Shown: positions 1,180 through 45,488 of the stretch, one piece after another | Numbering within the stretch: the stretch's first letter is position 1 | How the letters are laid out: each line of letters starts with the position of its first letter | Source: Halomonas halmophila | GTDB taxonomy: Bacteria > Pseudomonadota > Gammaproteobacteria > Pseudomonadales > Halomonadaceae | Length of the DNA: 64,000 bases | Direction of reading: 5' to 3' | NCBI RefSeq assembly: GCF_006540005.1 | Contig: NZ_BJOC01000013.1 | Coordinates: 62,001 to 126,000 of the forward strand | Notes under the pieces: model-generated | Databases searched by the model: none | What the model saw: only the letters and a program-made list of their open reading frames with translations | What the model was told of the DNA's origin: nothing | Made by a program: the position numbers and the translations under genes

Positions 1180-1284
1180 TTGTCTGAAAACTGACTACCC
1201 GCGCCCATTCGGCGTTGAAAATCGACTCGAAATACTCATTTACACGACGCAAACTCCAGTTCGTCGGCTTTGCCTTGCCTCAGG
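1180..1284 (+). repeat. Palindromic intergenic repeat, truncated copy
   Basis: This stretch aligns in the same orientation with the left two thirds of the full elements at 26563-26705 and 45198-45342. It shares GTCTGAAAACTG, CGGCGTTGAAAATC, a CTCATTTAC core and the start of the right arm near GCCTTGCCT. It then stops and is followed by unrelated sequence, so the right end is missing. The right arm no longer pairs well with the left, consistent with a decaying copy. Confidence 0.7.
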
Positions 1285-16923: not shown

Positions 16924-16954
16924 GTGCCGAGCGCAGACAGTTTTCGGACAATGC
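16924..16954 (-). repeat. Isolated end fragment of the palindromic intergenic repeat
   Basis: About 30 bases are the reverse complement of the left end of the element at 45198 (GCATTGTCCGAAAAC and on into GCGCTCGG), with near-perfect identity. Nothing else of the element is present. The fragment lies in the glpK leader between the GlpR operator and the start codon. Confidence 0.75.
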
Positions 16955-25933: not shown

Positions 25934-26563
25934 ATGAGTGTCCATGCCATTCAACACCCGCTCGTTCAACACAAACTGGGACTGATGCGTCAGGCGGGCA
26001 TCAGTACCAAGAGCTTTCGCGAGCTGGCCGGCGAGGTGGCCAAGCTGCTGACCTATGAAGCCACCCAGGACCTCGAACTGGAACTGCAGGACATTCCGGG
26101 CTGGAGTGGCGAGCCGATCACCGTCAACCAGCTCAAGGGCAAGAAGGTGACCATCGTGCCCATCCTGCGTGCCGGCCTCGGCATGCTGGAAGGCGTGACC
26201 GACCTGATTCCCAGTGCACGTGTGAGTGTCGTGGGGCTTTATCGCGATGAAGATACCCTCCAGCCGGTACCGTACTTTTCCAAGTTCGTCGGCGATCTCG
26301 ACGAACGCATGGCCATTGTCATCGATCCCATGCTGGCCACCGGCGGCTCCATGGTGGCCACTCTGGATATGCTGCGCGAACGCGGCTGCAAGCATATCAA
26401 GGTGATCGTGCTGGTCGCGGCACCCGAGGGCATCGAGCGCGTGCAGCGCGACTATCCGGATCTGGAGATCTATACTGCCTCGGTGGATGAAAAGCTCGAC
26501 GACAACGGTTATATCGTGCCCGGGCTGGGTGATGCAGGCGACAAGATCTTCGGTACCCGCTGA
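25934..26563 (+). CDS. upp: Uracil phosphoribosyltransferase
   Basis: Salvages uracil with PRPP to UMP. The 209-residue protein shows [24 protein letters not shown], the RAGLGMLEG motif, the PRPP loop [11 protein letters not shown] and the C-terminal uracil-binding [20 protein letters not shown]. Its stop codon shares a base with the first base of a palindromic repeat element, so the transcript 3' end runs into that structure. Its functional partner, the uracil permease uraA, is about 8.5 kb away. Confidence 0.97.
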
Positions 26564-26705
26564 GAGGGTGTTTACAAACTACTGCGCTCGCCCATGCGGC
26601 GTTGAAATCAGCCTTAAAATGCTCATTTACCAGCTCGTAAACTCCGCTTTTGCGGCTGATTTCGCCTAGCCTGGCCGTCGCTCGTGACTTTCGTAAACAC
26701 CCTCT
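26563..26705. repeat. Palindromic intergenic repeat, full copy (143 bp) downstream of upp
   Basis: Perfect 13-bp terminal inverted repeats (AGAGGGTGTTTAC at 26563-26575; GTAAACACCCTCT at 26693-26705) enclose a nested palindrome. GAAATCAGCC at 26604-26613 pairs with GGCTGATTTC at 26654-26663, and the inner TTTAC/GTAAA pair surrounds the core. It encodes no transposase. It shares core words CGGCGTTGAAA, TGCTCATTTAC, GTAAACTCCG and TTTCGCC with the copy at 45198. Confidence 0.9.
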
Positions 26706-26786
26706 GAGTCGTCCGCCCCCGTCCATGGCGGGGGACGCCTGGTGACGGTCTGACTGGCCGTCTGCGCCAATCTTTCTGGGGGCGCC

Positions 26787-45197: not shown

Positions 45198-45342
45198 TAG
45201 GCATTGTCCGAAAACTGTCTGCGCTCGGTTATACGGCGTTGAAAATCTTCTCAAAATGCTCATTTACTCCTTGTAAACTCCGCGTTTTCGTAGATTTTCG
45301 CCTTGTCTAACCTTCGCTCGTCGACTTTTCAGACAGGCCTAG
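45198..45342. repeat. Palindromic intergenic repeat, full copy between lexA and its promoter
   Basis: Imperfect terminal inverted repeats (AGGCATTGTCCGAAAA at the left, GACTTTTCAGACAGGCCT at the right) enclose the same core words as the copy at 26563. The internal stem is GAAAATCT at 45241-45248 with AGATTTTC at 45292-45299. Compared with the other copy, paired bases have changed together. The rest of the lexA-psrA interval holds the promoter and operator sites listed next and no gene. Confidence 0.88.
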
Positions 45343-45354
45343 TGCTTCCTCCTG

Positions 45355-45391
45355 GTGGTCAAGTATACAGCATGATTATCCATCCAGTAAA
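45355..45391 (-). promoter_or_regulatory. Predicted lexA promoter with two degenerate LexA boxes
   Basis: On the minus strand TTTACT (45386-45391) and TATACT (45362-45367) form a -35/-10 pair with 18-bp spacing. Two 16-base sites of LexA type overlap it: CTGGATGGATAATCAT (45372-45387) and CTGTATACTTGACCAC (45355-45370), each matching about 10 of 16 consensus positions. The start codon is about 250 bases downstream. Confidence 0.5.
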
Positions 45392-45488
45392 AGTGTGCCG
45401 CGATTGACGGGCAAAACGTGATGTTTCAAACAGTTGACAGAAGCCTGAATTGAGGCAATGTGATGCATGACGTACACTGCAGACAATT

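Follow-up and report, generated by a model that had tools for sequence, protein, structure and literature searches.

The window, by which we mean the whole 64-kb stretch of DNA analysed, carries four related palindromic sequences, all of them present as the preliminary description had them: full copies at 26563-26705 and 45198-45342, a truncated copy at 1180 and a solo end at 16924. The first full copy lies directly after the ORF at 25934-26563, which from its gene product we take to be upp. The following features were assigned on the sequence and, for the truncated copy, also by blastn.

1180..1284, + strand: degenerate truncated copy with left end and core, without the right end
16924..16954, - strand: class B solo end without core
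26561..26563: left 3-bp target duplication TGA, the stop codon of the presumed upp (ORF 25934-26563)
26564..26704, + strand: full element with class A ends GAGGGTGTTTAC..GTAAACACCCTC, core on the + strand
26604..26613, + strand: left arm of the inner stem, GAAATCAGCC
26620..26647, + strand: conserved core TGCTCATTTAC..GTAAACTCCGC of the class A copy
26654..26663, + strand: right arm of the inner stem, GGCTGATTTC
26705..26707: right target duplication TGA, placed by the sequence and the TNA rule
45200..45339, + strand: full element with class B ends GGCATTGTCCGAAAA..TTTTCAGACAGGCC, TA on each side
45257..45283, + strand: conserved core of the class B copy

The full elements measure 141 bp (class A) and 140 bp (class B), and there is no transposase inside. 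The class A element (26564-26704) is bounded by GAGGG and CCCTC and has the perfect 13-base terminal inverted repeats, AGAGGGTGTTTAC, that had been ascribed to it; the class B element (45200-45339) is bounded by GG and CC. The inner stem reads GAAATCAGCC/GGCTGATTTC in the class A copy and GAAAATCT/AGATTTTC in the class B copy and has indeed changed on both sides. The core motif was observed three times in the window, against 0.01 occurrences expected from shuffles. When folded as single-stranded DNA, the stretches 26564-26704 (z -5.27) and 45199-45341 (z -3.23) were each better than 200 of 200 shuffles.

A sister repeat with other ends (GGGAAACGCTG..) was found at 1281-1350 of the window (- strand), where a fragment of it adjoins the truncated copy at 1180, as well as at locus L283 and in the left flank of L002. 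At L283 the unpaired CTCA/CTCC is as in the element, but the apical stem that it encloses is CATAT/ATATG. The local alignment scored 34.5, compared to 14.5 for the best of 200 shuffles. Three matches in viral DNA to the sister core with the CATAT apical stem look like chance.

Copy number and spread

Blastn with the 26563 copy gave 22 rows at E<=1e-5 in the host genome, corresponding to 20 places because two elements are split by an insert; the covariance model gave 19 matches. The claim of a multi-copy, non-coding nested palindrome is borne out. Copies of 97% to the class A window copy occur elsewhere in this genome (blastn), and the class B window copy has a closely similar counterpart at G000:C19:155788-155928. 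The copies fall into two end classes, GAGGGTGTTTACAAA and GGCANTGTCYGAAAA. The true copy number may be higher, since class A copies are cut off by the ends of several contigs (L008, L040-L043). Class A copies L005 and L006/L011 carry the same ~70-bp hairpin-rich insert at the same point, so the insert has probably multiplied with the element.

We searched one genome per species for the exact 22-base core, TGCTCATTTAC-N4-8-GTAAACTCCGC; the invariance of the core among these matches is a matter of search design. At least 119 stretches were obtained, most of them in Pseudomonas and Halomonadaceae. Among the 119 core matches listed, classified by their record titles, 22 are from Bacteroidota (one of which, L103, resembles Pseudomonas and could be a binning error), 7 from Nitrosomonadales/Nitrosomonas, 3 from Mariprofundales and 2 from Vibrio. 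One core occurs with many different terminal repeats, several of them within one genome, in both Pseudomonadota and Bacteroidota. As had been proposed, the terminal repeats vary between copies yet remain paired; clear terminal inverted repeats were seen in many, not all, of 154 copies.

Covariance model R1 matched 47 of 58 relatives, the host genome included. The 14 genomes searched with the model had been chosen as carriers, so that 14/14 is no frequency; among the best 70 or 150 scored candidates per genome, the matches ranged from 2 (a Vibrio) to at least 150, with 41 in a Rikenellaceae genome and 16 in an Alistipes genome. Two MAGs of Nitrosomonadales and Mariprofundales (G059, G065) hold at least 150 model matches each in ~2 Mb, which is unusually dense. 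No core match was found in phage records. Viral contigs gave 10 stretches, of which 7 have element-like arms by eye and the others are chance-like, and an 81-base core query found no match in 5,426 E. coli genomes at E<=0.1. The outcome that would have spoken against the family, a genome search without other copies, did not occur; the searches, the covariance model among them, returned many.

Paired changes in the hairpin arms

The element consists of variable stems between conserved unpaired stretches, GCGTT / GCCTTG, TC / TC and TGCTCA / CTCCGC. The apical stem is usually TTTAC-n4-7-GTAAA, and the apical loop varies in length from 4 to 7 in 93 copies.

Covariation was tested with the arms anchored on the core, ungapped and not fitted to the structure. 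This is the less selected test, and it used 93 of 117 copies after removal of near-duplicates. Excess pairing was observed at (i,i) for most i of 1-16, with z up to 9.4, and it continued at (24,23) and from (27,26) to (29,28), becoming weaker in the terminal repeat. Alignment A1 comprises 29 of 36 sequences, the 7 with an interrupted or shifted arm having been left out. Because the 36 had been pre-selected for at least 7 paired of 10 positions in the inner stem, its percentages flatter the pairing: 91.3% of cells are paired, compared to 71.3% in shuffled arms and at most 48% when the arms are slid. Both sides changed at 18 of the 25 pairs (160 double-change cells), and only 4 of 725 cells are G-U or U-G. 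In 49 well-paired copies out of the 93, the mismatches G.T (7 of 490) and A.C (17 of 490) are both rare. The changes in the stems are therefore far from random with respect to pairing, and the randomness that would have refuted the preliminary description was not seen.

In the collected DNA, 301 distinct GCTCA-stem-CTCCG hairpins have TTTAC/GTAAA as the apical stem and 6 have other complementary stems (permuted control motifs, 0 or 1); single mismatches are also present. In a core-blind sample, chosen through the outer left arm, exact CTCATTTAC was present in 23 of 30 cases, as counted by eye.

Within one genome, Pseudomonas EpS/L25, we counted stem changes in the 42 of 72 copies whose arms have no indels; the cells count copies rather than events, owing to shared descent. 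In the 27 copies of one type, 26 double stem changes compare to 13 single ones, and apart from one variable position the unpaired stretches showed few differences. A second type (15 copies) showed 20 double and 10 single changes, with more loop variants. Some of the copies studied are best-scoring model matches, and others complete the exact-core set of one genome.

Additional hairpin modules were found in the internal loops of some copies. A short hairpin with YCCGRTC lies in the left internal loop at L016, L017 and L021 of the host genome and at L447 and L449 of Pseudomonas, and a short hairpin with the same motif lies in the right internal loop at L476 and L478. The small hairpin module, which ends in YCCGRTC, occupies different loops in different genera. 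A longer module is on the right arm in some copies; in others the left arm carries its inverted complement.

With respect to genes, 61 of 67 elements lie outside called ORFs (random positions fell inside in 1837 of 2180 cases, as judged by a crude ORF caller). Between tandem genes, 18 elements are on the same strand and 19 on the opposite one, hence no strand preference, and there is no excess between convergent genes (12 of 61 elements, compared to 76 of 304 gene pairs). As to strand against replication in P. oryzihabitans, exact cores counted by hand are 6 plus and 13 minus before mid-chromosome and 8 and 7 after it.

In RNA, many G-U intermediates would be expected. The near lack of G-U cells, together with the even strand distribution relative to genes, makes the constraint on the stems look DNA-level rather than RNA-level, and RNA-seq, which had been proposed as a check, is not a decisive test. 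Of the suggestion that structure is selected, the compensatory change is real, selection at the RNA level is not supported by the same two observations, and arm-to-arm copying may yield much of the paired change.

Target sites and candidate helper transposases

Among 76 copies with GA(A/G)CC-type ends, the flanking 3-mers are identical in 33, compared to 10.3 in shuffled flanks (the largest of 2000 shuffles gave 20). TNA stands on both sides in 38 of the 76; their middle bases agree in 32 cases and are complementary in 0. This supports a TNA duplication and rules out that the palindrome simply runs on into the flanks. For class A, the flanking triplets are identical in 4 of 6 copies (shuffled mean 1.5, largest 4). 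Read by eye, five of six class A copies of the host genome that retain both ends stand between identical TNA triplets, and one is flanked by TGA/TAA. The 34 copies with GG..GAAAA ends have TA on the left in 30, on the right in 25 and identically in 22; these 22 pairs are no proof of duplication because a TA preference alone predicts them.

We inspected the 3' end of upp in 30 of 60 matching genomes. Of these 30 genus members, the host included, 4 carry a core-bearing element immediately behind the stop codon; stub-like remnants stand there in 5, and 21 have neither. The genome nearest by upp identity (G035, 87%) reads TGAGAGCC without an element, an apparent empty site. Since the ends differ between species, insertion at upp has probably occurred more than once. 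The site behind the upp stop codon is probably a recurrent insertion spot (elements L274, L293, L296 and L302); the stubs at L290, L292, L295, L297 and L300 look like internal deletions and may offer a view of palindrome collapse.

Upstream of lexA in the host genome, the class B copy stands between the start codon and a promoter-like block that is conserved (CTGTATACTTGACCA). The copy is probably in the lexA leader (window 45200-45394), where nature would have set up a test of whether it affects SOS control. The 230 bases upstream of lexA in 21 other relatives contain no full element; a stub-like sequence is present in G017, perhaps also in G020 and G014, and in G008, G010 and G019 an element stands just after lexA instead. 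Of the two marks of insertion that had been called for, TNA duplications were seen in the flanks of the copies, and apparent empty sites in relatives at upp and at lexA.

As the elements are non-coding, the earlier view that they need a helper in trans appears right. Pseudomonas EpS/L25 has 22 PF13340 matches, and its resident IS5-family copies, many of them truncated, end in CTAGGCTCTGTACGAAAAAT or CTAGGGTTTGTCTGAAAAGT. Comparing ends only, we found that 15 of the 72 elements there match CTAGGCTCTGTACGAAAAAT at each end with no more than 4 mismatches in 20, and that 7 of the 72 carry the second IS end on both sides; the reversed strings gave 0. For the commonest element type of this genome, that with GA(A/G)CC ends, no IS partner was found there. 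Two truncated IS5-family copies at L217-L219 and L224 of the same genome stand head to head in a near-perfect 616-bp palindrome, either real or an assembly artefact.

Ends like those of class A also occur in Salinicola tamaricis, on a degraded IS of 1174 bp. ISPsy19 is an IS5-family element of 1178 bp with ends GAGGGTGTAGACAAAAT and a 3-nt duplication, and in these ends and this duplication it resembles the class A ends here (PMC3189936). The host genome has an IS5-family element with its transposase in two overlapping frames and ends CTAGGTTTTGTACGAAAAGT, related, not identical, to class B; no exact IS partner of the class A and B ends was found in the host assembly. The IS5-family assignment of these IS was made from Pfam models and ends.

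No autonomous element with GA(A/G)CC, CAGGCCGTTG, TTACTGTGTCACA, GTAACTACTCAG or GAGGCTGAATAAAAAG ends was found in the collected loci. A GAACCTG end pair at L474, considered as a full IS, apparently consists of two degenerate elements flanking an unrelated ORF. PF13340 and PF01609 searches gave no match in 7 of the 14 carrier genomes, and these seven hold 16 to at least 150 model matches, one of them a complete genome with 65. The helper there may have been lost, may belong to another family or may not be needed. Given the TNA duplications, the apparent empty sites and the matching ends of IS5-family elements, the helper is probably an IS5-family transposase.

Origin of the family and comparison with known systems

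Judged by its sequence, the family is of MITE type by the criteria tested: it is short, lacks a transposase, is multi-copy and has inverted repeats and a TNA duplication. We consider it likely that these are ~140-bp non-autonomous MITE-type elements moved in trans by IS5-family transposases, with a modular and widespread hairpin core. The transposases would recognise the terminal repeats, one end type duplicating TNA on insertion and the other preferring TA. Our best guess is that the hairpin core helps copying or transposition, during which it would matter as extruded or single-stranded DNA. Arm-to-arm templating, by hairpin repair or template switching, would keep the arms matched, and selection would keep the unpaired stretches.

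The matched arms could also be purely mutational, with template switching or hairpin repair correcting imperfect palindromes and the structure itself unselected. This is possible, if on the whole unlikely. It agrees with the excess of double over single stem changes in one genome (26 to 13 and 20 to 10 cells), with the near absence of G-U cells and with the module that swaps arm, inverted, between copies, for which loss from one arm is also possible because L082 carries it on both. Non-complementary stretches, however, persist across phyla without being homogenised (the core being there by search design), and loop variants are few in the 27 copies bar one variable position. That high-copy genomes hold dead leftovers of past bursts, the core being conserved through recency, seems quite unlikely to us: near-identical copies with intact ends occur inside genomes, and recency alone hardly accounts for a core common to two phyla, even if 7 of 14 genomes have no transposase match and stub-like remnants stand at 5 of 30 upp loci.

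We doubt still more that the elements are moved mainly by an enzyme reading the folded strand, as IntI does with attC or a Y1 transposase with REP; the core would then be the recognition hairpin and the terminal repeats no more than the stem base. TNA duplications and ends common to IS5-family elements fit a DDE transposase; on the other side stand the apical loop length of 4-7 with a covarying apical stem, the flanking unpaired motifs kept in most of the core-blind sample, and the high copy numbers in genomes without PF13340/PF01609 matches. A structured RNA, or a transcription or mRNA-stability element spread by selection on RNA, is very improbable. The location of 61 of 67 elements outside called ORFs and the class B copy in the probable lexA leader would suit it; the G-U frequency and strand-bias tests led us to reject an RNA function, and the lack of a convergent-gene excess and of Rfam matches also speaks against it. 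Rfam gave no match at gathering score, and a relaxed threshold gave chance-level ones only.

Beyond the preferred reading of a MITE-type family lies a bolder one, which we rate as unlikely. The core hairpin would be a functional DNA module, recognised by a widespread factor in its extruded or single-stranded form, that helps any carrier multiply; shared among unrelated bacteria of two phyla, it would repeatedly have switched transposase by way of both terminal repeats, a parasite of successive ISs and not a derivative of one. If the finding of one core with covarying DNA stems and many terminal repeats holds, the family would supply covariation data from nature on hairpins of DNA instead of RNA, an opening to study what keeps the arms of a palindrome matched, and an instance of a non-autonomous element that changes its helper.

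We found no published description or name of the family in the open-access literature examined. MITEs are usually viewed as short-lived deletion products of one insertion sequence. REP/REPIN sequences with RAYT are dispersed palindromes of high copy number with a helper in trans, ERIC sequences are mobile, and integron attC sites combine variable stems with conserved unpaired features in a DNA hairpin. Unlike attC sites, the elements here have terminal repeats, target duplications and dispersed copies.

ERIC, of ~127-bp length (PMC2267715), is likewise an intergenic repeat with a stem-loop; it differs in that the core of the present element has no match in the 5,426 E. coli genomes at E<=0.1. 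REP/REPIN sequences are defined by a hairpin of 20-40 bp with an adjoining GTAG or CGTC tag (PMC3733652); by eye this tag is absent at the element ends, which, together with the TNA duplications, are IS5-like. Among the P. fluorescens R-families, intergenic repeats of 50-352 bp of which five have inverted repeats, R0 and R2 have the same ends as resident IS and were proposed as MITEs, and R6 (177 bp, 34-bp repeats) and R178 are leads by description only (PMC2718517). MITEPsy1 of Pseudomonas syringae (100 nt, ends GGAAGGTCTGAAAAAGCC) is non-coding and transposes in vivo; it and ISPsy2 resemble the family in that MITEPsy1 is short and non-coding and the ends are IS5-like, the duplication there being CTAG or YTAA (PMC3189936). 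The MITEPsy1 end motif GTCTGAAAAAGCC, as given in that source, occurs in 0 of 533 collected loci. From the MITEs described in the literature examined, the present family differs in its two-phylum reach, in a modular hairpin that covaries as DNA, and in the varied terminal repeats carried on one core.
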